From contig JANQAE010000001.1 of assembly GCA_024707225.1 (NCBI GenBank), positions 1,550,001 through 1,614,000 on the forward strand: a stretch of DNA of 64,000 nt. The letters run 5' to 3'. Under the pieces are notes generated by a model. The model made no database searches. It saw only the letters and a list, made by a program, of their open reading frames with translations, and was not told the DNA's origin. Of this stretch, positions 34,856 through 64,000 are shown piece by piece. How positions within the stretch are numbered: the first letter of the stretch is position 1; each line of letters begins with the position of its first letter. The DNA comes from Dokdonella sp. (lineage in GTDB: Bacteria > Pseudomonadota > Gammaproteobacteria > Xanthomonadales > Rhodanobacteraceae). Made by a program: the position numbers and the translations under genes.

Positions 34856-34871
34856 TCACTCCCACTCGATC
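34856..34871 (-). other. Putative attachment site: guaA 3'-end sequence
   Basis: On the minus strand this reads GATCGAGTGGGAGTGA, which encodes I-E-W-E-stop, the near-invariant C-terminus of GMP synthase (guaA). The codons before it do not encode GuaA, so only the 3' end is present. The 3' end of guaA is a known target of tyrosine integrases, and insertion leaves a partial copy at the far end of the element. Left of it is chromosome-like; right of it begins the defence and conjugation cargo. Confidence 0.6.
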
Positions 34872-38838: not shown

Positions 38839-38841
38839 ATC

Positions 38842-42486: not shown

Positions 42487-42534
42487 AATGCCAGCAGTAA
42501 GACAATACAGCTAGCAAAGGGGCCGTCAGGGATC

Positions 42535-46264: not shown

Positions 46265-46492
46265 CTACGATCCGGCCGGCCGGCAGCGTCTGAACCCCCT
46301 GTCCGCGGCCATGAACGCCTCCAGCATGTGCGGGATCAGCGTGGCGGCGTCGACTGTTTCGCCATACGCCTGCGCGTGCAGCGCAGCGTAGCGGTCGAGG
46401 TCGGCTTTCAGGCTGGCCGGGCAGGCAAAGGTCAGCTTGACGCTCTCGGTCTTGGGCAACGGCCCGAGCCGCAGCTTCTTGGTCGCGCTCAT
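46265..46492 (-). CDS. DUF2274 conjugation-associated protein
   Basis: 75 residues, MSATKKLRLGPLPKTESVKL through TLIPHMLEAFMAADRGFRR. It is a small ribbon-helix-helix-like protein always found after trbI in Tn4371-type elements. Its start overlaps the trbI stop as ATGA. A second copy of its last ~17 residues is found in the remnant at 40603-40668. Exact role unknown. Confidence 0.85.
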   Translation of the reverse strand: MSATKKLRLGPLPKTESVKLTFACPASLKADLDRYAALHAQAYGETVDAATLIPHMLEAFMAADRGFRRCRPAGS

Positions 46493-47754: not shown

Positions 47755-47755
47755 G

Positions 47756-48746
47756 TCACTTCCCTCGCGGCCGGCCGTCCGTGCGCTCGATCCGCACGAC
47801 GTCGCCCTTGTCGCCGCCCAGGCGCAGCTCGGCAGCACCGAACAGCCGATCGACGATGTAGTACGGCGGCCGGAAGCGGTAGTTGACCAACTGGCCGTCG
47901 CCCTGCGGCCCGATCACGAACAGCGGCGGCAGCTCGCCCTGCGCGATGCCGGCCGGGAACTGGATGTAGACCTTTTCCGAATCGTCGAACGCACGCAGCG
48001 GCTTCCACGGCGGGTTGCTACCGCTGATCGCATAGCGGAAGCGGATGCGTTCCAGCGACAGGCCGGTCTCGACCGGCGCCGCCGTCTGCGCGTCCTGGGA
48101 CTGCTTCTGCAGGGCGAGCATGCGGTCCTTCGGATACTCCCAGGACACCGATGCCATCCACGCCCGCTCGGTCGAGGTCAGCTCGATCAGGTACGTGCGC
48201 CGGCTGGTGGTGATGACCAGGTTCGTCTTGAGGCCCGAGCGGATCGGCTTGACCAGCACGTTGACGCGCAGCCCTTCGCCGCTGCCACTGGACGTGTCGC
48301 CGACGATCCAGCGCACCGTGTCGCCGGCGGCCACCGTGACCAGTTCCTCGCCCGGTTGCAGCGAAATCACCGTCACGCGTCCCGGCGCCGCATAGACCTG
48401 GTACAGCGCACCATCGGTGAAGGGCCAGACCTGGATCGCGTTGACATAGCCTTCTCGCGTCGGCGCGATGCGCGCCTCAGCGTTGGCGCGCGACACGCGC
48501 ACCGTCTCGTCGGACGGCTCCGGCGTCGGCGGCGCCTCGGATTCGGGCAGCGGCTTCAACTGCGCCGGCAGGGCCAGCGGCTCGGGGACCGTGACGACCT
48601 CCACCGGCACCGGCGGCTCGGGCAGCGCTTGCGCCTGCACGGGCTCGTCGAGCGCGATCGTCGGCGGCGGTTTGCGCGCGGCTGGCACAGCCGGCCAGGG
48701 CCAGCATAACGAGCAGCAGAGCGGATCGACGGAAGAACGGGTTCAT
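47756..48746 (-). CDS. trbG: TrbG/VirB9-type conjugal transfer protein (apparent frameshift)
   Basis: About 330 residues when one extra base near 48690 is ignored. A lipoprotein signal MNPFFRRSALLLVMLALAGC starts at 48746; after the shift the mature part runs PAARKPPPTIALDEPVQ, a Pro-rich linker, then the VirB9-like AYVNAIQVWPFTDGALYQVY-type region and TVRWIVGDTSSGSG. The C-terminal domain has RYAISGSNPPWKPLRAFDDS and FVIGPQGDGQLVNYRFRPPY. It forms part of the outer-membrane ring. The start overlaps the trbF stop as ATGA, supporting this start over the GTG at 48688 that opens the second frame. Confidence 0.87.
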
Positions 48747-49446
48747 GGTTTGGCTCCTTCGGTCGCATCGAGTTCGCGGGTCCACGAGAGACCGTTGACG
48801 TAGATGCCGAGCGGGTTCGCGCGCAGCCGCTGTTCGGTGCGCGGGGTCTGCAAGACGATCGACACGACGGCGGTCCAGCGCTCGACGCCGGCCGGCGCAC
48901 CGTTGGCGAAGCGTTGCTCGGTCCAGCGCACCGCGAACGAGCTGTCGCTGGCGCGCACGATGCTGGTGATCTGCACCGTCACCGACTCGCGGCCGATCCG
49001 TGCAAAGGGATCGTTCGCGCGCGCGTACTCGTTCAACACGGCCGCGCCGCGTCGGTTGTGTAGTCGTAGGCGTCCAGCCAGTTCTGCCGCACGATGACGG
49101 GATCGATCGACAGCGAGCGCACCAGCGTTACGAAGCGCGCCAGGTGGTGCGCGATCTGCGCGTCGGTCGGCTGGTACGCGGTCGCCGCTTCCCCTACTGC
49201 CCGGACTTGTCCGGCACGGTCGACCTCGACGACGTACGGCGTCACCACCGATTGTGCGGAGCGCCAGACAAGGCCACCGGCCATCAGCAGGGCAAGGATC
49301 AGGCAGCCGAAGGCCATCAGGCGCCAGTTCCTGGCCTGGACGCGCGAGGCGCCGATCCGCTCGTCCCACACCTGGGCGGCGGCCTGGTACGGCGTGGCGG
49401 GCTCCGGCGTCTGGGAGTAGCGCACCTGGGGTCGCTTGAATCGCAT
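48743..49446 (-). CDS. trbF: TrbF/VirB8-type conjugal transfer protein (apparent frameshift)
   Basis: About 234 residues, VirB8-like. N-terminus MRFKRPQVRYSQTPEPATPY, one transmembrane helix (LMAFGCLILALLMAGGLVW), then the periplasmic NTF2-like domain: VVEVDRAGQVRAVGEA, VRSLSIDPVIVRQNWLDAYD, and in the second frame LNEYARANDPFARIGRESVT and YVNGLSWTRELD. The frames join at about 49050, where one C seems missing between DYTTD and RGAAV. Uncorrected, the first frame ends at 49033. Confidence 0.87.
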
Positions 49447-49458
49447 GGCTCAATCCTC

Positions 49459-50874
49459 TTAGGTGTCCGAATCGCGCAGGCTCGGTCCGCTGCCGGCGCT
49501 GCCGCTGTCGCCGCCGCGCATCGTGTGCGCGAGGGTCGTGGCGGCATGGGTGATCTGCTGGCGCCGGTGCAGGCGCTTGGCCCAGGCGGGCTGCGCGTCG
49601 GTGCCCTTGCCCGGCGCTTTGCCCGCGGTCTCGGCGTCCTGTGCGCCCGATCCGGCGGCGCTTGGGGAACCCGCAGCGGCAGCGGGTGCGGTTGCAGCGC
49701 CGGCGCCAGACGGCGGCGCTGCGCCCTCGCGGAAAGCGGAGACCGCCCGGTCCTTCAGCGCGCGCGCGCCGGACGCGGCGTGCTCGCCGACCGCCTGCGC
49801 GCCGCGCTTGGCGACGTTGCTGACGCCGGCCATGACGCCCTTCGCGCTGCCGCCGGCCGCAGCGGAGCCGGCTTGGTAGGCCGAGCGCGCGCCGCTGGCC
49901 GCGCCGCTTGCCATGCGCGCGCCGGTACCGGCCATCTTGGCGGCCGCCGGCGCCATCCGCGCCCCGGCCGCAACCGCCCCGCCGACGCCGGTCGCGGCGG
50001 CGCCAACCGCGACTGCGGTGCCGGCCGCGCCGAGCGCGGCGCCGGCCATCGCGCCGGCGCCCAACTGCGGACCGCCTGAGATCAGCCCGGTCGCGATGCC
50101 AGGCCCGAAAATCGCGAGCGCGAGCAGCGCGAGCGAAGCCAGCATCACGACCAGCGCGTGGTCGATCGACGGCTCGTCAGGCACGGTCTGAAACTCAAAG
50201 AACAGCCCGCTGCCAATGCCGACGATGACCGCCAGCACCAGCACCTTGATGCCGGACGACACCACGTTGCCAAGCACCTTCTCGGCGAGGAACGCGGTCT
50301 TGCTCCAGAGCGCGAACGGCACCAGGACGAAGCCGGCGAGCGTGGTCAATTTGAACTCGATCAGCGTGATGAACAGCTGGATCGCCAGGATGAAGAAGCA
50401 CAGGATCACGACCAGCCACGCGAGGAACAGCACCAGGATCGAATCGAGGTTCAGGAACACGTCGGGGAAGCCCATCAGGTCGTCGAGCTGAAGGAAGATC
50501 GGTGTACCCGCATCGAGGCCGGTCTTCGCCAGCCGACCCGGCTGAAGAAAATTCTCCATCGAGATGGCCGAGCCGGTGGCCGTCAGGCCCAGACCGGCGA
50601 AGGAGCGGAACACGATGCCGGCCAGCCAGTTGAAATTGCCGATGATGTAGGCGAAGGCGCCAACGTAGAGCACCTTGCGGATCAGCTTGGCGATGACGTC
50701 CTCGCCCTGCCCCGTCGCGTGGCTCATCGCCCAGTACAAACCCGCAATCGTCATGTCGATGACGATCAGCGTCGCGGTCAGGAATGCGACCTCGCCCTGG
50801 AGCAGCCCGAACCCCGAGTCGATGTAGCGCGAGAACGTGTCGAGGAAGCGGTCGATGACGGTGACGTCGTTCAT
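49459..50874 (-). CDS. trbL: TrbL/VirB6-type inner-membrane conjugation protein
   Basis: 471 residues. After MNDVTVIDRFLDTFSRYIDS come about six to seven transmembrane helices between residues 25 and 290, including FLTATLIVIDMTIAGLYWAM and VLFLAWLVVILCFFILAIQL. The C-terminal ~180 residues are a Gly/Ala-rich, probably cytoplasmic tail. This is the usual TrbL layout. The start overlaps the lipoprotein gene's stop as ATGA; the longer open frame to 51165 runs through that gene and is not used. Confidence 0.9.
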   Translation of the reverse strand: MNDVTVIDRFLDTFSRYIDSGFGLLQGEVAFLTATLIVIDMTIAGLYWAMSHATGQGEDVIAKLIRKVLYVGAFAYIIGNFNWLAGIVFRSFAGLGLTATGSAISMENFLQPGRLAKTGLDAGTPIFLQLDDLMGFPDVFLNLDSILVLFLAWLVVILCFFILAIQLFITLIEFKLTTLAGFVLVPFALWSKTAFLAEKVLGNVVSSGIKVLVLAVIVGIGSGLFFEFQTVPDEPSIDHALVVMLASLALLALAIFGPGIATGLISGGPQLGAGAMAGAALGAAGTAVAVGAAATGVGGAVAAGARMAPAAAKMAGTGARMASGAASGARSAYQAGSAAAGGSAKGVMAGVSNVAKRGAQAVGEHAASGARALKDRAVSAFREGAAPPSGAGAATAPAAAAGSPSAAGSGAQDAETAGKAPGKGTDAQPAWAKRLHRRQQITHAATTLAHTMRGGDSGSAGSGPSLRDSDT

Positions 50875-51206
50875 CGTGTCGCCTCCGCGTTGTCGGCGGA
50901 CTGCGGCCCGGCGTCGCCGCCCGCTTCGTCCTCGGGCGGCGTGTCGAAGCTCGCCGGGATCGGCGGCAGTTCGTCGAGCGTGTTGTACTCGTCCGGCCCC
51001 GTGTCGCCGGAGAAGAACCGCAGCCGGAACCCCTCGGCCGCCGCGCGGCACGCGTCCTCGCCCGCAGCCGGCCGATCCGCCTCGCATTGCGCGCGCAGTG
51101 CTTTCAGCCGCGCCGGATCGGCGGCCAGCGCGGCGGTCAGGTCTTCGGCCGGCGGCTGGCTGCACGCGGCCAGCAGCAAGGCCAGCAGGACGGGGACGGT
51201 TCTCAT
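50871..51206 (-). CDS. trbK: TrbK/EexN-like entry-exclusion lipoprotein
   Basis: 111 residues, lipoprotein signal MRTVPVLLALLLAACSQPP with lipobox LAAC. The mature part has the EexN-type block DPARLKALRAQCEADRPAAG and EDACRAAAEGFRLRF. It lies between trbJ and trbL, the classic position of trbK, and ends in an acidic tail. Entry-exclusion lipoproteins block redundant mating into cells that already carry the element. A paralogue is at 58769-59026. Confidence 0.8.
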   Translation of the reverse strand: MRTVPVLLALLLAACSQPPAEDLTAALAADPARLKALRAQCEADRPAAGEDACRAAAEGFRLRFFSGDTGPDEYNTLDELPPIPASFDTPPEDEAGGDAGPQSADNAEATR

Positions 51207-51217
51207 GGCAGCCTCCG

Positions 51218-51955
51218 TCAATTCCCGTAGAACTGCACGGGATAGGGCGTGTACGGCGTGCCCTCGCCGATGAAACGTCGGCGCACCTCGCGCGAGCGTT
51301 CGACGGCGGCCGCCTGGCGCGCCAGCTCGAGCGAGGCCGCGCGCTCCTGCGTCAGCTGCAACTGTTGCCCCTGGATCGTCTGCTTGGCCTGCAGCGCGAG
51401 CAGCTGGTTCATCGCCTGCATCGTCTGCAAGGCGCCTTCCGCCGACTGGCTGCGGTTGACCAGATCGGTCAGCATTTCCTGGTCATCACGGACCAGCGCA
51501 GACACCTGAGCCTGCACCCGCATCGCCGTGTGCAGACCCTGAAGCGTGAACTTCCAGCGCTCACGTGCATCCTGGTACATCTGGTCGCCGCTGACCGTCT
51601 CGGCGTACTCCTCCGGGTACAGCATCTGGAACTGGTGATCGAGGTTCTGGACGTCGAAGGCCAAGCCCTCGGCCTCGGCGATCAGCCGCTGGGTCGTCGC
51701 CAGCGCGGAACGCAACCGATCAACGACCGTGAAATCGAGGTTCGCCAGATTGCGCGCCTGGTTGGTCAGCATCCGGGCTTCGTTCTGCAGCTGCTGGATC
51801 TGGTTGTTGACCTGCTCCAGGGCCTGGATCGCGGTGATGGTGTTCTGGATCAGATTCACCGGGTCGACGAAGGTGACGGCGGACGCGGGCGGCGCGGACA
51901 GGACGGCGATCGACAGCGCGGCGGCGAGCGATGCGGACAGCAGACGGGTCTTCAT
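51218..51955 (-). CDS. trbJ: TrbJ/VirB5-type conjugal transfer protein
   Basis: 245 residues with a signal peptide (MKTRLLSASLAAALSIAVLS, cleavage after ASA). The mature part is mostly helical: TFVDPVNLIQNTITAIQALE and repeated Gln-rich coiled segments, then FQMLYPEEYAETVSG-like blocks, typical for TrbJ. It is a periplasmic or pilus-tip component. The start overlaps the trbE stop as ATGA. Confidence 0.9.
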   Translation of the reverse strand: MKTRLLSASLAAALSIAVLSAPPASAVTFVDPVNLIQNTITAIQALEQVNNQIQQLQNEARMLTNQARNLANLDFTVVDRLRSALATTQRLIAEAEGLAFDVQNLDHQFQMLYPEEYAETVSGDQMYQDARERWKFTLQGLHTAMRVQAQVSALVRDDQEMLTDLVNRSQSAEGALQTMQAMNQLLALQAKQTIQGQQLQLTQERAASLELARQAAAVERSREVRRRFIGEGTPYTPYPVQFYGN

Positions 51956-54396
51956 GGCGAGTTCTCCGAAAGTCGAGGGACGGACGCTGCGGTCGGCGCC
52001 GATGACAGCAGGTCGGCCGCCCAGTCCAGGCGGCGATGGCGCAGCCAGGCGCCGGCGAAGCCCGACGTGCCGGCGTCCCGCAGCACGCGGTCGATGTCAC
52101 GCTGGTCCTGGGGCGTGGACGCGCCGGCGAACGCCAGTGCCACGTCCCCAAGGTCCAGGTCGAACAGGCGATTGCCGAGCCGCGACTGGTAGTAGTAGTC
52201 GCGCTTGGGCTCGGCGGTCGCGACGATTTCGATCTGTCGTGCGTTGAGCCCGAACGACTCGTAGATCGAGCGGATCAGCGGCTCGGTCGCCTGCGGGTTT
52301 GGCAGGAAGATGCGGGTGGGGCAGCTCTCGATGAGCGCCGCCGCAATCCCCGAGTCCTTGATGTCGGCGAGCGATTGCGTATCGAAGATCACCGAGACCT
52401 GCTTCTTGCGCAGCGTCTTGAGCCACTTGCGCAGCCGCGCCTCGAACAGCGGATCGTCGAGCAGAACCCACACCTCGCCCAGCAGCAGCACGGTCGGCGC
52501 ACCGTCAAACCGTTCCTCCAGCCGCTGGAACAGGTACTCCAGCACCGCCACGGTGGCGGCCTTGCTGTGCATGAGGTCCGCCATCTCGAAGCACTGCACG
52601 TCGGCGTCGCCGATCCGTTCGTGGTCGGCATCGAGCAGCCGTCCGTGCGCGCCGCCGAGGACGTAAGGCGCGATCGCCTGCCGCAGCGCGTTCGATTGCA
52701 GCAGCACGGAGAAGCCGGTCAGCGTGCGCTGTTCGACCGGGGCGCTGGCGAGACTGCCGAGCGCCGACCAGACCGCCGCCCGCTCGTCCGGGCCGACGGT
52801 CACGCCCTCGTGCCGTAGCCGCGCTTCGATCCATTCGGCTGCCGACGTGCGATGGGCGGGTTGATCGATGCGCGCCAACGGCTGGAAGGCGACACCGCTG
52901 TCGGCACCCAGATCGTAGTGCTCGCCGCCCAGCCCGAGGATCGTGGCGCGGATCGAGCGATCGACGTCGAACGCGAAGATGCGCGCACCGGGATAGCGGC
53001 GGAACTGCATCGCCAGCGTCGCGATCAGCACCGACTTGCCCGAGCCGGTCGGGCCGACCACCATTGCGTGCCCGACGTCACCGACGTGCGTCACCAGCCG
53101 GAACGGCGTGGCGCCCTCGGTGCGGGTCACGATCAGCGGCGGGCCGTCCAGATGCGCGTTGCGCTCCGGCCCCGCCCAGACCGCCGAGACCGGGATCATG
53201 TGCGCCAGGTTCAGCGTCGAGACGATCGGCTGGCGCACGTTGGCGTAGGTGTGGCCCGGCACCGACGACAGCCACGCCTCGACCGCGTTCAAGGTCTCCG
53301 GCATCGTGACGAAGCCACGCCCCTGGATCACCCGCTCGATCTGGCGCAGCTTCTCGTCGGCGCCATCGGGATCGGCGTCGAGCACGGTCACCGTCGCGGT
53401 CACGTAGCCGTAGGCCACCTGGTCGCCGCCCAACTCCTGCATGGCCGCGTCGGCGTCGGCCGCCTTGTTGCTGGCGTCCGTGTCGAGCAACGGCGACTCC
53501 TGCTGGAAGATCGTCTCGCGCAGCAACGCGAGCACGCTCTTGCGCTTGGCGAACCATTGCCGGCGCAACCGCGCCAGCTCGCGCTCGGCTTCGGACTTCT
53601 CCAGGCACAGGAAGCGCGTGGACCAGCGATAGGCGAAGCCGAGCCGGTTGAGGTCGTCGAGCAGGCCCGGCCAGGTCGAGGTCGGAAAGCCGCGCACGGT
53701 CGCCACGCGCAGGTGTGCATCGCCGAGCATCGGCGCCAGCCCGCCGATCAGCGGGCAGTCGGTCAGCAGCGCGTCGAGGTGGAACGGCACTTCCGGTACG
53801 GCGACGCGATGCCGGCGCGTGGACACCGTACCGTGCAGGTAGGTCAGCGTCTGGCCGTCGTCGAGCCAGGCGATCTCCGGCATGACGCCATCGAGCAGGT
53901 CGAAGATCCGGTCGGTCTCGGCGACGAACGCCTTCAGGCGCTCGTGCCAGTCCACGCCGCGCGTGGCCGCATCCTGGTACAACAGCTTGGCGGCACGCGC
54001 CCGCGATTCCTCGGGCGGCAGGTGCAGCAGCGTCAGGTGGTAGCGGGCCTCGTAGTGGCTGCCGGCCTCGTCGAACGCCGCGCGCCGCTCCTCGTCCACC
54101 AGCCAGGACACCGGATCGGGGAACGTCGAGTGCGGATAGTCCGCCGCAGGCCGGCGTTCGGCATCGACGAACAAGGCCCAACCCGATCCGAGCCGGCGCA
54201 GCGCGTTGTTCACACGGGCCGAGGTGTCGATGAGTTCGCCCTGCGTGGCGCTGTCGAGGTCCGGACCGCGAAACCGCGCGATTCGCATGAATGCCCCGTC
54301 CTTGTTAAGGACCACACCGCGCGCGACCAGGCCGGCCCAGGGTAGCCAGTCGGCGAGCTGCGCTGGACGCTGGCGGTATTCGGCAAGGTTCATCAT
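51952..54396 (-). CDS. trbE: TrbE/VirB4-type conjugation ATPase (altered Walker B)
   Basis: 814 residues from MMNLAEYRQRPAQLADWLPW. The N-terminal CagE/TrbE domain is followed by the ATPase part with Walker A VVGPTGSGKSVLIATLAMQ near residue 450 and VSVIFDTQSLADIKDSGI downstream. The Walker B region reads VLLLGEVWVLLDDP where relatives have LLLDEAW, so the first acidic residue is replaced by Gly. If real, ATP hydrolysis could be weakened; a base error is also possible. The protein energises assembly of the mating channel. A longer frame to 54603 overlaps trbD and is not used. Confidence 0.92.
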   Translation of the reverse strand: MMNLAEYRQRPAQLADWLPWAGLVARGVVLNKDGAFMRIARFRGPDLDSATQGELIDTSARVNNALRRLGSGWALFVDAERRPAADYPHSTFPDPVSWLVDEERRAAFDEAGSHYEARYHLTLLHLPPEESRARAAKLLYQDAATRGVDWHERLKAFVAETDRIFDLLDGVMPEIAWLDDGQTLTYLHGTVSTRRHRVAVPEVPFHLDALLTDCPLIGGLAPMLGDAHLRVATVRGFPTSTWPGLLDDLNRLGFAYRWSTRFLCLEKSEAERELARLRRQWFAKRKSVLALLRETIFQQESPLLDTDASNKAADADAAMQELGGDQVAYGYVTATVTVLDADPDGADEKLRQIERVIQGRGFVTMPETLNAVEAWLSSVPGHTYANVRQPIVSTLNLAHMIPVSAVWAGPERNAHLDGPPLIVTRTEGATPFRLVTHVGDVGHAMVVGPTGSGKSVLIATLAMQFRRYPGARIFAFDVDRSIRATILGLGGEHYDLGADSGVAFQPLARIDQPAHRTSAAEWIEARLRHEGVTVGPDERAAVWSALGSLASAPVEQRTLTGFSVLLQSNALRQAIAPYVLGGAHGRLLDADHERIGDADVQCFEMADLMHSKAATVAVLEYLFQRLEERFDGAPTVLLLGEVWVLLDDPLFEARLRKWLKTLRKKQVSVIFDTQSLADIKDSGIAAALIESCPTRIFLPNPQATEPLIRSIYESFGLNARQIEIVATAEPKRDYYYQSRLGNRLFDLDLGDVALAFAGASTPQDQRDIDRVLRDAGTSGFAGAWLRHRRLDWAADLLSSAPTAASVPRLSENSP

Positions 54397-54406
54397 CGCC
54401 CTGCCC

Positions 54407-54670
54407 CTATGCGTCCAGCAGCGGCCGCTGCCGCAGGTGCCGCGCGAACACGGCCATGAACTGCGCATCGACGCGCGCGCCCCACACCGCCAGCGCATGG
54501 CCGACGATCCACAGCGCGATGCCGGGCAACCAAAGCTGCAGGCCGAGACCCACGGCCGCCGCAAGCGTGCCGTTGGCGATCGCGACCGTGCGCGGCGCAC
54601 CACCGAGCAGGATCGGCTCGGTCAGCGAGCGGTGCAGCGGCACCTCGAAACCGGGCAGGTCGCCACTCAT
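54407..54670 (-). CDS. trbD: TrbD/VirB3-type conjugal transfer protein
   Basis: 87 residues: MSGDLPGFEVPLHRSLTEPI, then a hydrophobic hairpin (TLAAAVGLGLQLWLPGIALW, IVGHALAVWGA). This matches the VirB3-like TrbD family in length and motif LTEPILLGGAPR. It is an inner-membrane part of the transfer apparatus. Its start overlaps the trbC stop as ATGA. Confidence 0.88.
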   Translation of the reverse strand: MSGDLPGFEVPLHRSLTEPILLGGAPRTVAIANGTLAAAVGLGLQLWLPGIALWIVGHALAVWGARVDAQFMAVFARHLRQRPLLDA

Positions 54671-55044
54671 ACGACCGCACCGCCCGAGAACGAAAAGAAC
54701 GACAGGAAGAACGACGAGGCCGCGAAGGCGATCGAGAGACCGAACACGATCTGGATGAGCTTGCGGAAGCCGCCGGAGGTGTCGCCGAACGCGAGCGCCA
54801 GGCCGGTCGCGATAATGATGATGACCGCGACGATGCGCGCCACCGGCCCCTGGATCGAATCGAGGATCGATTGCAGCGGGTCTTCCCACGGCATCGACGA
54901 TCCGGCGGCCTGCGCCGTACCGGCGCTCACCAGCATGACCGCCGCCAGCAGCAGGCCGCGGTGCGCCGGCCCGGCCAGCTGGCGCAGGCGCGAAAGGATG
55001 GGAAACGGATTGACGGAAAAGCGCAATGCATGGACGTGCGTCAT
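54667..55044 (-). CDS. trbC: TrbC/VirB2-type conjugative pilin
   Basis: 125 residues. A long N-terminal signal region (with LLLAAVMLVSAGTAQAAG) precedes the pilin core: SSMPWEDPLQSILDSIQGPV, then two hydrophobic helices (ARIVAVIIIIATGLALAFG and LIQIVFGLSIAFAASSFF) joined by the DTSGGFRK loop. This is the expected pattern for a VirB2/TrbC pilin. Start follows the trbB stop closely. Confidence 0.9.
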   Translation of the reverse strand: MTHVHALRFSVNPFPILSRLRQLAGPAHRGLLLAAVMLVSAGTAQAAGSSMPWEDPLQSILDSIQGPVARIVAVIIIIATGLALAFGDTSGGFRKLIQIVFGLSIAFAASSFFLSFFSFSGGAVV

Positions 55045-56086
55045 GGCAAGCCTCCTGGGCGGTTTGCGGATCGGGAAGTGAACGTGGGTGGCGCGGAAGG
55101 CGGCGCGGCCAGCGCGTCCACCAGGTGATAGCCGTCGGCGTCGAACCCGACGACGCGGCTGATGCTGTCGATACGGCGGGTGCGCCCGCGCCCCGTGATG
55201 AGCACGACGACGTTCACCGCTTCGGCGATCAGGGCCGCGGCGCGGCCAGGGCCACCTCGAGAATCAGCTGCTCGATGCGAAGCAGGCCGCCCTGCGCCGA
55301 GCCGCCGTGGAGCGTCGCGATGCCGCCGGGATGTCCGGTGCCCCACACCTTCACCAGGTCCAGGGCTTCGCCGCCGCGTACCTCGCCGACCGCTACCCGG
55401 TCAGGGCGGAATCGCATCGCCGCGCGCACCAGGTCGGCCATCGAGACGACGCCGGGCAGCGTGCGCAGCGATACGTGGTCGCGCGCCACGCATTGCAGTT
55501 CCACGGTGTCTTCGAGCACCAGCACGCGATCGCCGGTCGCCGCGATCTCGGCGAGCAGCGCGTTGGCCAGCGTCGTCTTGCCGGTACTGGTGCCGCCGAC
55601 GATCAGGATGTTCTGCCGCTCGCGCACGGCGCGCACCAGAAAGCCCGCCTGCGCCGCGGTCATCATCCCTTCGGTCACGTAGCGCTCCAGCGGGATCACG
55701 CCGACCGCGTGCTTGCGCAGCGCGAAGGTCGGCGCCGGCGCGGCTGGCGGCAGCACGCCCTCGAAGCGTTCGCCGGTCTCCGGCAGCTCGGCGCTCAAGA
55801 GCGGCTTGGCCCGGTGGACCTCGGCGCCGACGTGCGAAGCCACCAGGCGGATGATCCGCTCGCCGTCGGCCTGCGACAGTCGCGCGCCCAGCGGTGCGCG
55901 CCCGCTCGTCAGCCGGTCGACCCACAGCGAGCCATCCGGGTTGAGCATGACTTCCACCACGTCCGGCTCGTCCAGCGCCGCGGCGATCAGCGGTCCCATT
56001 GCCGAGCGCAGCATGCGGATGCGCCGGTCCAGCGACGTGGCAAAGGCGGAACGCGTCTCCGGCGCCGCCTGCGGCACGGCGCTCAT
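55041..56086 (-). CDS. trbB: TrbB/VirB11-type conjugation ATPase (apparent frameshift)
   Basis: About 348 residues when one lost base near 55235 is restored. N-terminal MSAVPQAAPETRSAFATSLD, domain with EVMLNPDGSLWVDRLTSG, Walker A ILIVGGTSTGKTTLANALL, the Asp box VLVLEDTVELQC, Walker B RPDRVAVGEVRGGEALDLVK and His box GHPGGIATLHGGSAQGGL. After LRIEQLILEVALAAP the frame is lost; the other frame gives ALIAEAVNVVVLITGRGRTR and a normal tail. Uncorrected, the frame ends at 55229. The start overlaps the upstream copG stop as ATGA. Confidence 0.9.
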
Positions 56087-56546
56087 GACGCACGCTCCTG
56101 CGCCGCGAGCGCCGCGCCGCATCGTCCAACCGTGCCGTATCGGGCTGCAGTTCCTCCACGACGTCGCGCACCAGGCTGCGCCCGCGCAGCAGGTGCCGGC
56201 CGAGCTGCTCGACGAACTCGCCGAAGCGGGCCTTGCCCTGCGCCTGCGCGGCGTCCCGATGCGCTTCGGCGACCGGCACGGTGACGGTCAGGTAGTACCG
56301 GACGAACAGCGCGACGGTCTCGATCAGGATGTTCTGGTCGCGTTCCAGGCGTTCGATCTGCCGGGACAGGCGATCCAGGCGCTTGGCCATCGCCGCCTCG
56401 CGCCGGTCGCCGGCGTCCGGCGACAGCCAGGACGCCAGCGCCGCCGCGACGATCGAGGACTTGGACACGCCCTTCATGGCGGCCAGCTCGTCGAGCCGGC
56501 GGGCATGCTCGGGCTGGATAAAAAGGTTGAGGCGGGCCTGACTCAT
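56083..56546 (-). CDS. CopG/ribbon-helix-helix protein of the conjugation operon (apparent frameshift)
   Basis: About 154 residues: MSQARLNLFIQPEHARRLDE and AAMKGVSKSSIVAAALASWL form a ribbon-helix-helix DNA-binding domain. A helical region follows (LDRLSRQIERLERDQNILIE, then VEQLGRHLLRGRSLV). The tail joins LQPDTARLDDAA to LAAQERAS after one missing base near 56111, which places the stop exactly at the trbB start (ATGA). Without correction the frame runs on through trbB. A CopG-like gene between traG and trbB is typical for Tn4371-family elements; it may regulate the operon. Confidence 0.82.
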
Positions 56547-58598
56547 AGCCGGATTCCATCGTCGGGATCGAGGGACGCCAGCCGAGCCGAGCGTTGCAGG
56601 GCGGGATCGAATTGGCGCGGAAGCGAAAGCGGACCGTCGTCGTCGTCGAGCAGCGATAGGTCGGTGACCGTCGGCTCGGGAGCGGCGCGGTAATCCGATA
56701 CCTCGGCCAGCTCCGGCTGCTGGCGCGGGCCGCCGTCCTCGGGAGCTTCGTCCGCGCGCGCAGGCGCCAAGCGCGGCTCGGGCGCCGCCAGCGGTGCGCG
56801 GCCGCTCCAGTCGTCGGCGCGTTGCGGCGGTGCATCGGCGTAGTGCCCAGCCGTCAGCACCGGCGGGGGAGCACGCGCCGGGTGAAGTTCAGATCCTCGT
56901 AGAACCGCAGCTTGCCCGCCTTAATAGGCGGGTGGCCCTGGAGACCATCACGACGGCCTCGTCGGGCGGCAGCTGCATCACTTCGCCCGGCGTCAGCAGC
57001 GCCCGCGCGGTCTCCTGCCGCGAGACCATCAGATGCCCGAGCCACGGCGCCAGCCGGTGTCCGGCGTAGTTGCGCTGCGCGCGCAGCTCGGTCGCCGTGC
57101 CAAGCATTTCCGAGACGCGCTTGGCGGTGCGCTCGTCGTTCGTCGCGAACGTGATGCGCACATGGCTGTTGTCCAGGATCGAGTGGTTGACGCCGTAGGC
57201 TTTGTCGATCTGGTTGAGCGATTGGGAGATGAGGTAGCTGCGAATGCCGTAGCCGGCGATGTAAGCCAGCGCGGTCTCGAAGAAGTCCAGCCGGCCGAGC
57301 GCCGGAAACTCATCGAGCATCAGCAGCAGTTCGCGCTTGCGCTCGATGCCGTCCGAGCCGTCGAGCGATTCGGTCAGGCGCCGGCCGATCTGGTTGAGGA
57401 TCAGTCGCACCAGCGGCTTGGTGCGCGAAATGTCCGACGGCGGCACGACCAGGTAGAGCGACACCGGATGCTCGGCCGCGATCAGATCGGCGATGCGCCA
57501 GTCGCAGCGCGACGTGACCTCGGCGACCGTCGGATCACGGTAAAGGCCGAGGAAGCTCATCGCCGTGGACAGCACGCCCGAGCGCTCGTTGTCGGACTTG
57601 TTGAGCACTTCGCGTGCGGCCGAGGCGACGACCGGATGCGGCGCCTCGCCCAAGTGCTGCGTCGTCATCATCCGGCGCAGCGTCAGCTCGAACGGGCACG
57701 CCGGGTCGGACAGGAAATTGGCAACGCCGCGCAGCGTCTTGTCTGCACCGGCGTAGAGCACGTGCAGGATCGCGCCGACCAGCAACGCGTGGCTGGTCTT
57801 CTCCCAGTGATTGCGCCGCTCCAGCGCGCCTTCCGGATCGACGAGGATGTCGGCGATGTTCTGGACGTCGCGCACCTCGTGCGTGCCGCGGCGCACTTCC
57901 AGCAGCGGGTTGTACGCCGCGGACCGGGGATCAGTCGGATCGAAGCGCAAGCAGTGCGAGTAGCGCGAGCGCCAGCCCGCCGTCAGCGTCCAGTTCTCGC
58001 CCTTGATGTCGTGGACGACAACGGAGGACGGCCATGCCAACAGCGTCGGGACGACCAGACCCACGCCCTTGCCACTGCGCGTCGGTGCGAATGCGATGAC
58101 GTGCTCGGGGCCGGCGTGGCGCAGGTAGCGCAGCGTGCGGCCGAGCATGCGGCCGAGGAACACGCCGGTCGGCCCGGTCAGTCCGGCGCGCGCGATCTCC
58201 TTCTCATCGGCCCAGCGCGCCGAGCCGTAGGTCGTGACCAGGCGCGACTGGCGCGAGCGCCACACCGACATCGCGATCGCGACGAGGACGGACAGCAGGC
58301 CGCTGCCGCCGGCAATCGCCCCGCCCACGTCGAAAATGTCCGGCGCGTAGCCGTCGAAAAAGAACCACCACTCAAACAGCCGCCACGGGTGATAGACCGG
58401 CGTGCCAAACAGATCGAACCAGGGCGGACCCAGGCGTAGCTGGTAGCCGAGGGCCGCAGCCGTCCATTGCGTGGCGAACCACACACCGGCGAGGACGATG
58501 CCGATCACGGCACCGATCTGCCCGAACAGGACTTGCGTCCCTTGCATCCCGACCTCCGACAGCTTCCGATCGACACGCGACACAAGGACGTGCCGCAC
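56543..58598 (-). CDS. traG: TraG/VirD4-type coupling ATPase (two apparent frameshifts)
   Basis: About 686 residues. N-terminal transmembrane helices (VLFGQIGAVIGIVLAGVWFA and a second), Walker A FAPTRSGKGVGLVVPTLL, LRFDPTDPRSAAYNPL and Walker B ELLLMLDEFPALGRLDFFE, then QSLNQIDKAYGVNHSILDN. After DEAVVMVS near 56940 the frame is lost; a second frame gives GHPPIKAGKLRFYEDLNFTR. A third, after a C5 run near 56870, gives VLTAGHYADAPPQRADDWSG and the acidic C-terminal tail to 56543. Each join needs one lost base. Couples the relaxosome to the channel. The stop overlaps the copG start as ATGA, which supports the reconstruction. Confidence 0.88.
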
Positions 58599-58768
58599 GC
58601 GCGAAGTTCGGTGCAGAGTCGGTGTCGGTCAAAGACCGTTTTCGGGATAACGGTCGATCAAAACGGAAGAATTCGTGCCGCGTCGAAGGCGCGGCATGCG
58701 CGGCGTACACCAGCGCATGACGGCGTGTCGGCGAAAAATTTCACCGACTCGCCCGAAACGATCGCCGA

Positions 58769-59026
58769 TCAGAATTTAGGCGGGTCTTTCGGCGGTGTGT
58801 AGGGTGCCGTGGCGTCGTTGACAAATCGTTTACGCGTCGCCTCGGCCACGCGCAGGCACAGGTCCTCACCGACCTTCGCGCGTTCGAGCCGGCACTGCTG
58901 GCGCAGTTCCTTCAAGCGCACGGGATCGGCGGCCAGTTCCTCGACAGTCGGCAGGTCTTGGGGCGCCGGCGCCTGGCCACAAGCGGCCAGCGCCAGGATG
59001 CACAGCAGCAATGAGGCGTGCTTCAT
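58769..59026 (-). CDS. EexN-like entry-exclusion lipoprotein (second copy)
   Basis: 85 residues with a lipoprotein signal, MKHASLLLCILALAACGQAP, lipobox LAAC. The block ELAADPVRLKELRQQCRLER and GEDLCLRVAEATRKRF matches the trbK product at 50871-51206 almost position by position. Its start overlaps the LysR gene stop as ATGA, so the two are coupled. It stands upstream of traG. It may be an additional exclusion specificity. Confidence 0.8.
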   Translation of the reverse strand: MKHASLLLCILALAACGQAPAPQDLPTVEELAADPVRLKELRQQCRLERAKVGEDLCLRVAEATRKRFVNDATAPYTPPKDPPKF

Positions 59027-59967
59027 GGCTCGATCTCCTCCGGTGTATTGGGTCGGGTCGGAACGATACCGCCGTCGTCCTCCGGCGAGTCGAGGTGCGC
59101 GACACGCTCGACGAAGCGCGCCAACACCTGCGAAGGGTCTCGGCCGGGCCGCAGCAGGTAGGTGGTCAGCATCGGCGATCGTCCGGCGAGCGGCCGCGCG
59201 ACGACGCCCGGATGACGGCTGGCCGCGAGCTGCGAGGCGCCTGCGAGCCCGAGTGCGAACCCGGCCGCGACCAGCGTCATCATCAGGTCGAACGATGCGA
59301 CGCGATCGAGTACGAGCGGGTCCAGGTCCACGGCCCGCAGCGCCCGCTCGACCTGCCGCGCGTGGCCCTCGCACACCTGCGGGTCGCACAGCACCAGCGG
59401 GAAGCGCAGCACCTCGTCCAGCGGGATGCGGCTCAACGCCGCGAGGTCGTGTTGCGCCGGCAACGCGACGACCAGCGGATCGCGCCAGGCCGGCTCCGCC
59501 AAGAGACGATCCCCCACCTCGTCCGACTGCGCGAAGCCGACGTCGTAGAGATCGTCCTGCAGCCCTTTGATCTGCTGTGCCAGCGGCACCTCGTACAGGC
59601 GGAACTCCACGTCGGGCTCCTCCTGCCGGCACTGCGCCAGCAAGGCCGGCAGCCGCGAGGGCGTGATGCCATCGGACAGCGCGATGCGCAGCTGGGCCTC
59701 GCAGCCGTTGGCGCCGGCCTTCGCCGCGTCGCGGGCCTGCTGGACGGCCGCGAACACGCGCGGAACGTGCGCCAGCAGCAGTTCGCCGGCACGGGTCAGC
59801 CGCGTGGTACGCGTGGTGCGTGCGAACAGCTGCGCGCCGAGGTCTTCTTCCAGTTCCTTGATCGCGCGCGACAGCGGCGACTGCTCCATGTGCAGTCGGT
59901 CGGCCGCACGCGCGAAGCTCAATTCTTCCGCGACGGCGAGAAAGCAGCGCAGGTGCCGGAGTTCCAT
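59023..59967 (-). CDS. LysR-family regulator of the conjugation module
   Basis: 314 residues. N-terminal winged HTH MELRHLRCFLAVAEELSFAR with AADRLHMEQSPLSRAIKELE, then a LysR substrate domain (LRIALSDGITPSRLPALLAQ). It is first in a minus-strand series leading to the EexN-like gene and traG. A LysR-type 'traR' gene is usual upstream of traG in Tn4371-type elements, so it may control transfer; effector unknown. Confidence 0.87.
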   Translation of the reverse strand: MELRHLRCFLAVAEELSFARAADRLHMEQSPLSRAIKELEEDLGAQLFARTTRTTRLTRAGELLLAHVPRVFAAVQQARDAAKAGANGCEAQLRIALSDGITPSRLPALLAQCRQEEPDVEFRLYEVPLAQQIKGLQDDLYDVGFAQSDEVGDRLLAEPAWRDPLVVALPAQHDLAALSRIPLDEVLRFPLVLCDPQVCEGHARQVERALRAVDLDPLVLDRVASFDLMMTLVAAGFALGLAGASQLAASRHPGVVARPLAGRSPMLTTYLLRPGRDPSQVLARFVERVAHLDSPEDDGGIVPTRPNTPEEIEP

Positions 59968-60785
59968 CGGCCATGCTCCCGGTGGTCTGGATGCTTCCCG
60001 AAGCGTTCGCGCGGTGACCGCGCGCCATGCACCGACAGAGCGCCCGTCCCGAGCGCATGGGTTCCCGCGTGGGACGAGCGGCGGCGCGGCAGCGCCGAGC
60101 GCATTCGGAACCTAAGCGGCCAGTGTAGCGCCAGCTTTGGGCCATGCGCCGGTCTCGCATCGCCGGCTATCGGCGCCAAGCGCCGCCTGATCGTGCGGCC
60201 TGGCCCCTCTGCGTCGTTGCATGCGCCCTCCCCTACCGCTGCTTTCGTACGAGGGCGACGGGAGTTCGCTCGGGGCCTTGTAGGAAATATCCTACGCAGG
60301 GTCGGGGGGATTTCTTACGGCGTCGTCAGTCGCCAATGACCGCGAGCATCCCCGTCGAAGCCCGGAGGCTGCGCGCTGCGTTCGATGGTGGGCGAAAGCC
60401 TTTACATGCTGCGCGGTCTTCATGTGCGGTTGCGCACGGAATTGGGCTGTAGCGGGTCGATACGCTCGGAACCAGGGCGAGGGAGCTACGTGTGAACAAG
60501 GAGTTTTCCGATGAGAGCCAGGGGCTCGCGGAGCGGGCGGCCGTGCGATGACGCGCGCCGCTCACGGACGGACTGGGTGTCCGCATCCCGTACGGTGAAG
60601 ACACGTCGGCGAGGCGCCAGCGATAGTGACGGCGCGCCCGCAAGCGAACGCCTCAAGGTGCTGAGGACGGCACGGTCCGACGACCTTAACCGTCGCACTC
60701 GACGGGTGCCCCGCATCCCCGCGCTGCTGACCGAATCGCTGGCGACACGCCGACGCTGATTCGGCACGCAAGGAGGAGCAACCCG
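59968..60785. other. Non-coding stretch between conjugation and lasso modules
   Basis: About 820 bases without a convincing gene. It contains the palindrome GTAGGAAATATCCTAC at 60280-60295. A short frame from 60511 has an AAGGAG box, but its Arg/Ser-rich product looks like a GC-driven frame. A different short frame from GTG 60492 is stopped after 19 residues. No integrase, tRNA or oriT was recognised here. Confidence 0.45.
60280..60295. promoter_or_regulatory. 16-base palindrome GTAGGA-N4-TCCTAC
   Basis: Perfect 6-base arms around AATA. It resembles binding sites of LuxR/NarL-type response regulators (TAGGA-N4-TCCTA). It lies between the LysR and GntR-like genes, about 310 bases before the divergent LysR start's right side and 500 bases before the GntR-like gene. 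Confidence 0.4.
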
Positions 60786-61415
60786 ATGGAAGCCAAGCGC
60801 TCGAAGGTCGAGCAGATATGCGATGCCATTCGGCTCGGCTTGGAGAAGGGGCGACACATTCCGGGAGACCGTATCGATGCTGACGCGCTTGCGCTCAAGT
60901 TCCGTACGAGCCTGACGCCCGTACGATACGCGCTCTACTGCCTTTGGACCGAAGATGTCCTGGAGAATCACGGGCGCGCCGGATTCTGTGTGCCCCTGCT
61001 GGACGAGGCCGATCTGATCGATCTCTACGACTCCGCGGAGAGCCAGCTCATACCGTCGTGCGGAATCGGGCATGGGCCATCCAAGGGGACCGTCGGCCAC
61101 CTGGATCTCAAAAAGCGAAACAGCGACGTCGTCGTGCTGACGCGACAGCTGTTCGGCGCGATGGTGTTCGCCAGCGGCCGTCGTTCGCTATGCATGGGCA
61201 TGCGGATAGCCAACGGACGCCTGGGATCGATCAGAAGAATCGAGCGCAAGCTGATCGACGACGCGCGCGGCGAACTCATCAGCATCCATCGGCTTTGGCA
61301 GAGAGGCGATCCGGGACTGCGAGCAGCGTTGTTCGAGTACCACGAGCGACGCAGGCGGATGGCGCCGAAAATCGTCGCGGTCATGAGAGCCGGGGTTCGA
61401 CGCGCCGACAAATGA
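60786..61415 (+). CDS. GntR-like regulator at the head of the lasso peptide locus
   Basis: 209 residues. The N-terminal ~70 residues form a winged HTH: KVEQICDAIRLGLEKGRHIP, then DALALKFRTSLTPVRYALYC. The C-terminal helical part (ELISIHRLWQRGDPGLRAAL) resembles an FCD-like ligand domain but is short. AAGGAGGAG lies about 8 bases before the ATG. Its stop is 139 bases before the first precursor peptide. Regulators of this kind are found beside lasso peptide clusters in proteobacteria; direct control here is an inference. Confidence 0.72.
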   Translation: MEAKRSKVEQICDAIRLGLEKGRHIPGDRIDADALALKFRTSLTPVRYALYCLWTEDVLENHGRAGFCVPLLDEADLIDLYDSAESQLIPSCGIGHGPSKGTVGHLDLKKRNSDVVVLTRQLFGAMVFASGRRSLCMGMRIANGRLGSIRRIERKLIDDARGELISIHRLWQRGDPGLRAALFEYHERRRRMAPKIVAVMRAGVRRADK

Positions 61416-61473
61416 CGGCGTGAGTATGGACGTCCAAAGCGCGCCCAACAAATCTTTAAGAAGTTTCGTGAAA

Positions 61474-61510
61474 GTTACTTGAGTGTTTTGAAGATTCGGT
61501 TCTTAGATGG
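61474..61510 (+). promoter_or_regulatory. Candidate promoter for the lasso precursor operon
   Basis: AT-rich stretch in otherwise GC-rich DNA. TTGAGT (around 61479) and TTAGAT (around 61503), separated by 18 bases, could be -35 and -10. It precedes the first precursor ATG by about 45 bases. Weak match, so tentative. Confidence 0.35.
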
Positions 61511-61554
61511 ACGCGCCATGACAGGCATGGCAGCAACCCAACTAGGAGATCGAC

Positions 61555-61701
61555 ATGAAGACCAGCAAGAACGTCGCTTCACCCGAAGCGCAGAAGCAGG
61601 ACGTCATCGTGCTCGGCGCCGTGAGCATGGAGACCAAGGGCAATCTCGCCAAGGACGAAACGGTCGGTGGCATCCGCCCCGCCGGCATTTCCAACGAGTA
61701 A
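61555..61701 (+). CDS. Lasso peptide precursor A1
   Basis: 48-residue precursor, too short for most gene finders. Leader residues 1-28 start MKTSKNVASPEAQKQ and end VIVLGAVSMETK, matching the proteobacterial lasso leader pattern LGxxxxxTxG with Thr27 at the -2 position. The predicted core is residues 29-48: GNLAKDETVG followed by GIRPAGISNE. Gly1 and Glu7 of the core (residues 29 and 35) would form a seven-residue macrolactam ring; the E7-x-V-G-G spacing is that of xanthomonins. AGGAG lies 6 bases before the ATG. It is followed by a paralogue and by the processing enzymes. The product is inferred, not proven. Confidence 0.85.
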   Translation: MKTSKNVASPEAQKQDVIVLGAVSMETKGNLAKDETVGGIRPAGISNE

Positions 61702-61731
61702 GCGGCTCGGGCCGCGAGGAGATGTATCCCC

Positions 61732-61869
61732 ATGAAGACCAGCAAAAACATCGAGGACAGCAAGCCCGTCGTCATCGTACTCGGTGCCGTGAGCACCGAG
61801 ACGAAGGGCACGCTCGCCAAGGACGAAACGGTCGGCGGCATGCGTCCGGCCAGCCTTTCCGACGAGTGA
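61732..61869 (+). CDS. Lasso peptide precursor A2
   Basis: 45-residue paralogue of A1. The leader starts MKTSKNIEDSKPVVIVLG and ends STETK, with Thr24 at -2. The predicted core is residues 26-45: GTLAKDETVG followed by GMRPASLSDE. Ring residues 3-7 and the V-G-G segment are identical to A1; differences lie at core position 2 and in the tail (12, 16, 17, 19), so two related peptides are made by one machinery. A GAGGAGA box lies 9 bases before the ATG. It is 30 bases after A1 and 47 bases before the B gene. Confidence 0.85.
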   Translation: MKTSKNIEDSKPVVIVLGAVSTETKGTLAKDETVGGMRPASLSDE

Positions 61870-61916
61870 CCCACACGGGGCGCGCCCACGGGCGCGCCTC
61901 TCTCCGGGAGAACGCC

Positions 61917-62597
61917 TTGTCATATGGACTGCGCGATGATCTTTCTTACTGCCGAGCGGACGGTCGGCTGATCTTCCTCGACGTCGAACAGGATCGCTAC
62001 TTTCGACTCTCGGATGCAATGGAGCAGACCCTCGTCGCGTTCCTGGAAGGCGATGCCGGCGGTGGAGTCGACATCGGTCCGCTGATCGAGGCCAACATCC
62101 TGACGCCGGCGCAGCCGGAGACCGCCGGATCTGTCAGCCCGGCCATCGAGCTACCGCGGCGCAGTCTCGTTGAACGGCGGCCACCGCCACGCAAGATCGC
62201 AGCGAGCGTACTGATCGACGCCTTCACCATTGTCTGTACGACGCAATGGCGGCTGAAACGGCGCAAGCTCAAGCAAGTGCTCGACGCGCTCGTCGCATAC
62301 AGGCAACAGCACACTCCGCAGACCATCAAGACATCCAACGGCGTGCGTCAACCAGGCCTGATGGAAACCGTTGACGACTTTCGTCGCGTTCGACGCTACG
62401 TCCCAATCGAACCGATATGCCTCCTTGACTCGCTCGCAATGACGCGATTCCTGGCGAAGCGTGGATTGAACGCGAGCATCGTGTTCGGCGTCACGACCGA
62501 TCCTTTCTCCGCGCATTGCTGGGTCCAAACCGGCGACTTGGTTCTGAACGATACCGTCGGACATACCAGCGCCTACGTTCCGATTCGGGTCGTTTGA
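61917..62597 (+). CDS. Lasso peptide B protein: RRE (PqqD-like) fused to leader peptidase
   Basis: 226 residues from a TTG at 61917, chosen because GGGAG precedes it and the RRE domain starts there. Residues 1-75 (LIFLDVEQDRYFRLSDAMEQ) are a PqqD-like RiPP recognition element that binds the leader. Residues ~95-226 are a transglutaminase-fold cysteine protease with Cys168 (EPICLLDSLAMTRFL), His200 (FSAHCWVQ) and Asp212 (LNDTVGH), as in McjB. The enzyme cuts off the leader after the -1 residue. The frame is open upstream through both precursor genes in another frame, which is not coding. Its stop overlaps the C-gene start (TGATG). Confidence 0.88.
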   Translation: MSYGLRDDLSYCRADGRLIFLDVEQDRYFRLSDAMEQTLVAFLEGDAGGGVDIGPLIEANILTPAQPETAGSVSPAIELPRRSLVERRPPPRKIAASVLIDAFTIVCTTQWRLKRRKLKQVLDALVAYRQQHTPQTIKTSNGVRQPGLMETVDDFRRVRRYVPIEPICLLDSLAMTRFLAKRGLNASIVFGVTTDPFSAHCWVQTGDLVLNDTVGHTSAYVPIRVV

Positions 62598-64000
62598 TGA
62601 GCTATTCCTACATCGTCCTGATAGAGGACGAGAGCCGAGCCACGAGCAGGATGGATGGACAGGTCGACCTGGCCCTCGATGCCCTCGGCATGCGGCTTCG
62701 CTACGCGTCCGGTCCGATCAAGGTATTCGCTCAAGAGCAAACGCCGATCATCCTCCTGCCCGGAAGCGGGGTGGTGATCGGCGACCTCTTTACCAGGATC
62801 GGCAGAGTCGTTTCGGACGGCAGGCAACTTCCGACGTTGACGCAGCCGTCGCAGTTCCGCGATCACCTGCTCAAGCATTACTGGGGGGACTACGTACTCG
62901 TGCAGCCGTCGGTCGACGGCACCCGAAGCCTGAGTTTCACCCGAGACCCGTCCGGGGGCCTGGGTTGCGTCTACGTTCTGCAAAGCGGTTCTGGTTTCGT
63001 CGCGTCCGACGTCTCGGTTGCAGCTGATACCGGGTTGTATCGGAGGCAGATAGACTGGGACGCCGTTGTCCAACTGCTGACTTACCCGAACCACAAGGCG
63101 CAGCGCACAGCACTGGTCGACGTCCGCGAGTTGTTGCCTGGATGCTCCCTGCAGCTGCACGGACAGGACGTCTCTGCAACGCTCGCCTGGTCGCCTTGGG
63201 ATCACGTCGCCGCTGCAAATCGCCATCGTGACTTCGCCGAAGCGGCGGCCGACGTTCGTTCCGCTGTTCTGAGCGTCATCAAGGCCTGGGCAAAGATCGA
63301 CCCATTCATCCTGCTGGAGCTGTCCGGAGGCCTGGATTCGTCGATCGTAGGCATGTGCCTGCATCAGGCCCGGGCTCGTGTAGCCTGCTGTACCCTCGTG
63401 ACGCCGGTTCCCGGCGCCGACGAGCGTCAGTACGCCGACCTCATCGCCCAGCGTCTCGGCGTCACGCTTCACGCCATCGAGTTGAAGTACGAAGACGCGC
63501 GCTTCGATTTCGTACCGCCGGCACACTTGGCGAACCCAAGCATCACCGCGCTCCAGTACGCCACGAACTCGGCGTTCGACGCAATGGGCGACAGGCTGGA
63601 TGTCGGCAGCTTCTACTCCGGCGGCGGTGGCGACACGGTGTTCTCGTTTCTCGGAAGCGCGGCACCTGCTGCGGATGCGGTCAGAGAGCGCGGCTTTGCG
63701 ACAGGCATTGCTGCGATCCGGGACCTTTCCGCCTTGCACGAATGCACGTTCTGGAAGGCGGCTCGCTTGACGGTGCGCAAGCTGCTGAGACAACGTAGGA
63801 GCCTCGGCAAGCCGGACGGATCGTTTCTCAATCCGGCCAAGGTTTCGCGCAGTGTGCAAGACCATCCGTGGTTTGCAGCTGCGCCTGCCCACGCCTTGCC
63901 CGGCGACCGGGACAGAATCTTTGATCTGGCCGGCACGCAGGTTTTTCGGGACTACCTGCCGCGCGGCATGCGCCGACCGCTACGCATGCCGTTGTTGTCG
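62596..64000 (+). CDS. Lasso cyclase C protein, asparagine-synthetase-like (3' end outside window)
   Basis: At least 468 residues, running off the window. N-terminal glutaminase-like domain starts MSYSYIVLIEDESRATS but lacks the N-terminal Cys needed for glutamine use. The synthetase domain has the ATP-pyrophosphatase loop LLELSGGLDSSIVG near residue 240, then PGADERQYADLIAQRLGV and YSGGGGDTVFSFLGS. In McjC-type proteins this domain adenylates the ring Asp/Glu side chain and joins it to the Gly1 amine. Start overlaps the B stop, so translation is coupled. Any transporter or isopeptidase gene would be beyond 64000. Confidence 0.9.

Follow-up and report, generated by a model that had tools for sequence, protein, structure and literature searches.

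Lasso peptide gene clusters of the isopeptidase type, such as those of the astexins, benenodins and sphingopyxins, have an A-B-C gene order with a GntR-like regulator gene almost constantly ahead of the precursor gene, as well as an isopeptidase gene and, downstream, genes of a TonB receptor and a sigma/anti-sigma pair (PMC9266682). Xanthomonins and the predicted lasso peptide of Stenotrophomonas acidaminiphila have 20-residue class II cores with Glu7, a GG in the middle and a GIS-type tail (PMC4675943; PMC7549694), and for a similar core, GILQGNEPMGGEPVPGISEE, a seven-residue ring like that of the xanthomonins was predicted (PMC4675943). Among integrative and conjugative elements (ICEs), those related to Tn4371 share a RepA-ParA-TraF-relaxase-[variable region]-TraR-TraG-trb scaffold, the variable region after the relaxase gene and before TraR being an insertion hotspot (PMC2789088), whereas a published ICE located in guaA is ICERsy1 (PMC7385641). 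In this work, a 64,000-nucleotide stretch of the Dokdonella sp. genome (assembly GCA_024707225.1, contig JANQAE010000001.1; G000:C1:1550001-1614000), hereafter called the window, was analyzed together with its surroundings. At its right end there begins a class II lasso peptide cluster of the isopeptidase type, which is very probably the cargo of a Tn4371-type ICE residing at guaA.

The cluster opens with the GntR regulator gene (60786-61415, plus strand; 209 aa; PF00392, 27.2 bits, cut-off 27), followed on the same strand by two precursor genes, A1 (61555-61701; 48 aa) and A2 (61732-61869; 45 aa), by gene B, which begins with TTG (61917-62597; 226 aa), and by gene C, encoding an asparagine-synthetase-like lasso cyclase (62597-64000, continuing to 64342). 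The preliminary description, made from the letters of the window, had recognized this order as a lasso peptide locus complete except for the 3' end of C. Both the order and this interpretation were borne out, and a broken C, which would have spoken against it, was not seen in the genome sequence: the gene is intact (581 aa), about 468 of its residues being encoded within the window and the last 342 bases beyond it. What that description stopped short of is the other half of the cluster, convergent to C and lying outside the window, on the minus strand (window numbering is kept). It comprises genes of a lasso isopeptidase (64339-66450; NF033523, 649.5 bits, cut-off 400), a TonB receptor with STN, Plug and barrel domains over the cut-off (66506-69193), FecR (about 69268-70251) and the extracytoplasmic function sigma factor FecI (about 70253-70801), the last two also with domains over the cut-off. 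Profile searches thus matched each gene, from GntR through FecI, to family models, and the Atxe2-family isopeptidase, TonB receptor and FecR/FecI pair that mark the isopeptidase-type subgroup are all present. The profile matches of A1, A2 and B, the catalytic residues, the cognate-type isopeptidase gene and the isopeptidase and TonB genes convergent to C in all 17 named relatives (see below) support the reading of the locus as a lasso peptide cluster whose two precursors are arranged in tandem. An Rfam scan of window positions 50000-64000 gave no matches, and a candidate hairpin between A2 and B (-28 kcal/mol) was discarded, as its z-score of -1.32 is not clearly above chance.

Both precursors are recognized by curated models: A1 by NF033522 (benenodin; 38.6 bits, cut-off 33) and PF24178 (Subterisin; 39.4 bits, cut-off 27), and A2 by PF24178 (28.0 bits, 1 bit above the cut-off), its NF033522 score of 32.9 bits falling 0.1 bit short. 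Since such models exist, pipelines applying them need not overlook A1 and A2, and the earlier expectation that standard gene calling would miss these short genes does not necessarily hold. The leaders end in VLGAVSMETK (A1) and VLGAVSTETK (A2), that is, in a common LGAVSxETK with Thr at position -2, and the pattern LGxxxxxTxG reported previously is present in both. The 20-residue cores, GNLAKDETVGGIRPAGISNE of A1 and GTLAKDETVGGMRPASLSDE of A2, differ at positions 2, 12, 16, 17 and 19 (three more codons differ silently) and share Glu7, GG at positions 10-11 and a C-terminal Glu; hence the T-x leader end, core Gly1 and acidic residue at 7-9 of lasso precursors are found in both, as T-K-G and Glu7. 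Open reading frames (ORFs) that combine LGxxxxxTxG and an upstream Met with a core that is 15-30 residues long and acidic at one of positions 7-9 occurred twice in the window and once in 30 mononucleotide shuffles taken together.

A1 and A2 are predicted to yield class II lasso peptides of 20 residues each, GNLAKDETVGGIRPAGISNE and GTLAKDETVGGMRPASLSDE, with a ring that probably consists of seven residues (Gly1-Glu7), as in the xanthomonins. In the collected cores, Glu7 is in place and conserved at the predicted xanthomonin-type lactam position. Cores were collected from 47 loci found in the searches with B and C (the present one included) and from 11 loci found with A1; among the 46 distinct ones (the two of the window included), 42 have their first acidic residue of positions 7-9 at 7 and four have it at 8, a count in which exceptions cannot appear, because the script demanded an acidic residue at 7-9. 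In an earlier, unfiltered precursor listing, no plausible precursor lacking such a residue was seen by eye, and loci L025 and L032 had no plausible precursor whatever.

The B protein scores 79.5 bits with NF033537 (cut-off 33) and 65.9 bits with PF13471, in agreement with an RRE-like leader-binding domain joined to a transglutaminase-like cysteine protease. The catalytic triad proposed earlier, C168, H200 and D212, was recovered when counting from the TTG start; an alignment of 38 B proteins shows no variation at C168 and H200, and at position 212 it has D in 21 sequences and E in 17. The structural model of B (pLDDT, the predicted local distance difference test, of 89) has the lasso B1 structures 5v1v and 6jx3 as its nearest matches (probability 0.99). 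The C protein matches PF00733 with 98.6 bits (cut-off 21) and carries at residue 243 the SGGLDSS loop expected of an asparagine-synthetase-like cyclase, again as previously described. The isopeptidase aligns with AtxE2 (5txc) at an E-value of 7.6e-49, its Ser534 and His646 standing opposite a Ser and a His of AtxE2 which we take to be the catalytic residues of that enzyme.

The GntR protein combines a winged helix (PF00392) with an all-helical second domain, and its model (pLDDT 86) resembles the FadR/FCD type, the best PDB match being E. coli McbR (4p9f, E-value 6.6e-7). Among 233 genomes of the family, B was found in 32, the regulator in 32 and both in 30. In the set of 47 loci, which was drawn from two collections and counts some clusters twice, the regulator was detected in 43, always on the same strand as the B match (43/43); it lies 373-642 bases ahead of that match in 32 loci and further away or elsewhere in the other 11. 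The idea that a B-linked GntR gene is a new arrangement was dropped, as PMC9266682 gives it as usual in isopeptidase clusters. An in-frame stop interrupts one of the copies of the lasso-linked GntR gene in G142 (L022:2588-3184; G142:C11:500153-500734).

A scan of named genomes with C yielded 18 loci, of which one, a weak fragment, was set aside; the remaining 17, at 46-52% identity, belong to Rhodanobacter, Luteimonas, Stenotrophomonas, Xanthomonas, Pseudoxanthomonas, Fulvimonas and Oleiagrimonas. In all 17, the isopeptidase gene is convergent to C and directly downstream of it, and a TonB match is present. The region ahead of the TonB gene is more variable: L048 has FecR and FecI beside its lasso TonB gene (according to Pfam), L044 and L051 have them beside a different TonB gene, and in L036, L037, L040, L041 and L045 the gene before TonB encodes an HTH_3-type regulator in place of FecR/FecI. 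The TonB protein of L047 has an STN domain and that of L048 one below the cut-off, while in that of L036 Pfam found none. In the C tree, the Dokdonella protein forms a long branch next to L044 (support 90/85), which names no donor; the C sequences of several family members are at zero tree distance from those of named loci in Rhodanobacter and Fulvimonas, from which the host family is very probably Rhodanobacteraceae. A search with A1, which is insensitive and misses clusters detected by B, gave matches in nine of the 398 genomes of the order (the own one included), the other eight at 43-49% identity. B itself had no match in nine other genomes of the genus, so that it is present in one of ten. 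Tandem precursors occur elsewhere, in G158, G455 and G490; the cores of the G490 locus, L110, are presumably xanthomonins I and II.

Compared with the xanthomonins and the S. acidaminiphila peptide, the two cores have the same length, class, Glu7, central GG and GIS-type tail, but they carry Lys5, Asp6 and Arg13; precursors in tandem are shared with xanthomonins I and II (PMC7549694; G490 locus L110). From the astexin, benenodin and sphingopyxin clusters, with which the gene content described above is shared (PMC9266682), the present one differs in having two precursors and in lying inside a conjugative element. Precedents thus exist for the architecture, the leader motif, the type of ring and the tandem arrangement of the precursors, and what is new, within the sequences searched, is the core sequences only: neither was met elsewhere and all 44 other collected cores differ from them, in line with the first impression that they are not a described product. 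The carrier, a conjugative element, is unusual.

Left of the cluster, the window contains TraG and trb conjugation genes (46489-58598, minus strand; TraG: PF02534, 312.8 bits; TrbE: PF03135/PF19044) and, at the TraR position of Tn4371-like elements, a LysR-type regulator gene (59023-59967, minus strand; PF03466, PF00126). To the right of the cluster, outside the window, there follow genes of a DUF3363 relaxase, an S26 peptidase occupying the TraF position, ParA and RepA, and, adjacent to guaA, a tyrosine integrase gene. Relaxase, RepA/ParA, TraR, TraG and trb are therefore all present in the fixed order of the Tn4371 scaffold, and the lasso cluster occupies the accessory slot from the relaxase gene to traR, with conjugation genes on both sides. 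RepA was found in 15 of 233 family genomes and 11 of 26 genera, with none of the other listed members of the genus having it, and five of the 14 other RepA genomes were examined (G079, G103, G055, G049 and G076). The first four, which represent other genera, have the same backbone order, including the trb order and the regulator position, with a slot between the relaxase and LysR genes of 4.6, 19.9, 1.7 and 19.8 kb, respectively, versus 23.1 kb here; no match to the GntR, C, isopeptidase, TonB or FecR genes was found in these four (threshold 1e-10). The G+C content of the cluster is 64.4%, versus 69.5-72.2% in the backbone blocks.

The putative left attachment site, attL, is TCACTCCCACTCGATC (34856-34871; G000:C1:1584856-1584871; strand not assigned), identical in 15 of 16 positions to the 3' end of guaA (G000:C1:1661613-1661628), which is the right-hand copy of the end repeat. 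Within a 192-kb stretch, attL is the sole other same-strand place within five mismatches of the 20-base site, and the element bounded by the repeat measures 76,773 bases. The cluster as a whole is located in an element apparently able to pass between bacteria by conjugation. In G002 and G008, the conjugation backbone was not found at guaA in the stretch examined; G008 has an integrase of 58% identity there.

The fifth genome, G076, is at most a candidate for a second case of an ICE-borne lasso cluster: it has the same backbone, but its 3.1-kb slot is free of lasso genes, two distant lasso-type clusters start 5.0 kb past trbI, and its integrase is beside a tRNA-Ser gene for the end of which no repeat was found. 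These clusters (L119-L120; G076:C1:834193-853547) stand back to back and comprise B, C, isopeptidase-like, TonB and FecI/FecR genes, with C 27-30% identical to that of the window and a precursor-like ORF ending in GSTTPPNNDGGVLFKPQPGTAA.

Several observations weigh against this overall picture. On the side of the element, insertion at the Tn4371 attB, TTTTTCAT, was not found; with insertion at guaA instead, as reported for ICERsy1 (PMC7385641), and marked here by an integrase beside that gene and a repeat of its end, the element is of Tn4371 type by scaffold only. Its ends rest on one short, imperfect repeat (15/16), and in nine same-genus guaA loci (1.5 kb of flank, one shorter) no homolog of the genes left of attL lies beside guaA, so that an empty site was not seen. 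As to the cluster, the fold matches of B are weak (E-values of only 0.042 for 5v1v and 0.080 for 6jx3, and 0.14 for 6jx3 in a profile search against structures), and the leader-binding fold of B, as modeled, is weakly supported. The C protein is below every lasso-specific NCBIfam cut-off (NF033535, 54 of 525), and FecR/FecI accompany the TonB gene in few relatives: tblastn (1e-4) finds FecR in three of the 17 named loci, a search which missed the FecR/FecI pair of L048 that Pfam shows and by which absence elsewhere is consequently not provable.

A rival view is that the lasso cluster is real yet immobile, a chromosomal resident beside, or stranded in, the remains of a conjugative element. The imperfect repeat and the missing empty site fit it, and so do the 17 named relatives, whose flanks (up to 9 kb) match non-lasso genes of the element only as guaA and its neighbor in L046, from which most such clusters seem chromosomal. 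Against it stand the backbone on both sides of the cluster, ordered as in four siblings, with the cluster in the hotspot slot of Tn4371-like elements, the occurrence of B in one of ten genomes of the genus, and the deviating G+C content; we regard it as unlikely. About equally improbable is that the genes are intact and the product is not a threaded lasso with a seven-residue ring, being instead closed at another position, a branched cyclic form, or absent in this host. Asp6 adjoins Glu7, and threading is not readable from sequence. However, in the great majority of the cores the first acidic residue of positions 7-9 is a Glu or Asp at 7, and a dedicated isopeptidase is present, an enzyme type whose member AtxE2 acts on the threaded form only (PMC9266682). 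A class II lasso cluster carried by a guaA-located ICE remains the best explanation; it is built on the genes and their families, the intact active-site residues, the gene order, Glu7 in most relatives and the position amid conjugation genes.

From these observations we infer the product, its ring size, transport and signalling, and the continuing mobility of the element. The GntR protein would control expression of the A genes, and the RRE-like part of B would bind the leader, which the Cys-His-Asp site, recognizing Thr-2, would cut after Lys-1. Using ATP, C would then activate the side chain of Glu7 and join it to Gly1 around the tail, A1 and A2 giving two 20-residue lassos with seven-residue rings. 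Their predicted neutral monoisotopic masses are 1979.007 and 2014.963 Da, corresponding to [M+2H]2+ ions at 990.511 and 1008.489. The peptide, or a partner bound to it, may be re-imported by the TonB receptor, which would signal via STN, FecR and FecI, after which the isopeptidase would open the ring. Very probably, the lasso trait moves as one ICE cassette together with its genes for sensing and degradation.

Two uncharacterized, charged, xanthomonin-like lasso peptides are thus predicted, with exact masses to be sought, and the cargo slot of the ICE offers a concrete route by which lasso clusters could spread. Isopeptidase matches were found by tblastn in 20 of 72,556 plasmid records, all below 60% identity. 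The genera of these records are, we assume, Alphaproteobacteria. With plasmid-borne clusters of this kind existing, mobile isopeptidase-type lasso clusters are not new as such; no lasso cluster is described among the accessory genes of Tn4371-like ICEs in the accessible part of PMC2789088, and no report of one in a Tn4371-type ICE was found in the open-licence literature searched. The role of isopeptidase-type lasso peptides is still called enigmatic in PMC9266682, and the present locus is a natural setting for asking about it. A far-fetched idea is that the peptides serve the ICE and not the host, the cassette making, sensing (TonB-STN-FecR-FecI) and destroying its own peptide signal; if so, carrier cells might recognize one another or adjust transfer.

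The element also carries other cargo. Just inside its left end, PADLOC indicates anti-phage defence genes, namely AbiEi and AbiEii (window 35354-36965) and the Gabija pair GajA-GajB (37003-40575; 779 and 680 bits), the latter with counterparts of 95% identity in the G079 sibling element, and at 41734-43771 a DUF5131 protein and its partner match the PADLOC candidate defence systems PDC-M30/M41. The right part encodes a type II DNA cytosine methyltransferase (L066:8047-9243; G000:C1:1650047-1651243), preceded by a short ORF which by eye resembles a Vsr repair nuclease. In the lasso slot there is a serine recombinase gene (PF00239, PF07508; L004:162-1571; G000:C1:1623162-1624571), whose product may have introduced some of the cargo. 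Outside the element, the window contains at 23299-32088 a frame of 2929 aa with GH94 and glucoamylase-like domains, in which respect it presumably resembles cyclic beta-glucan synthetases.

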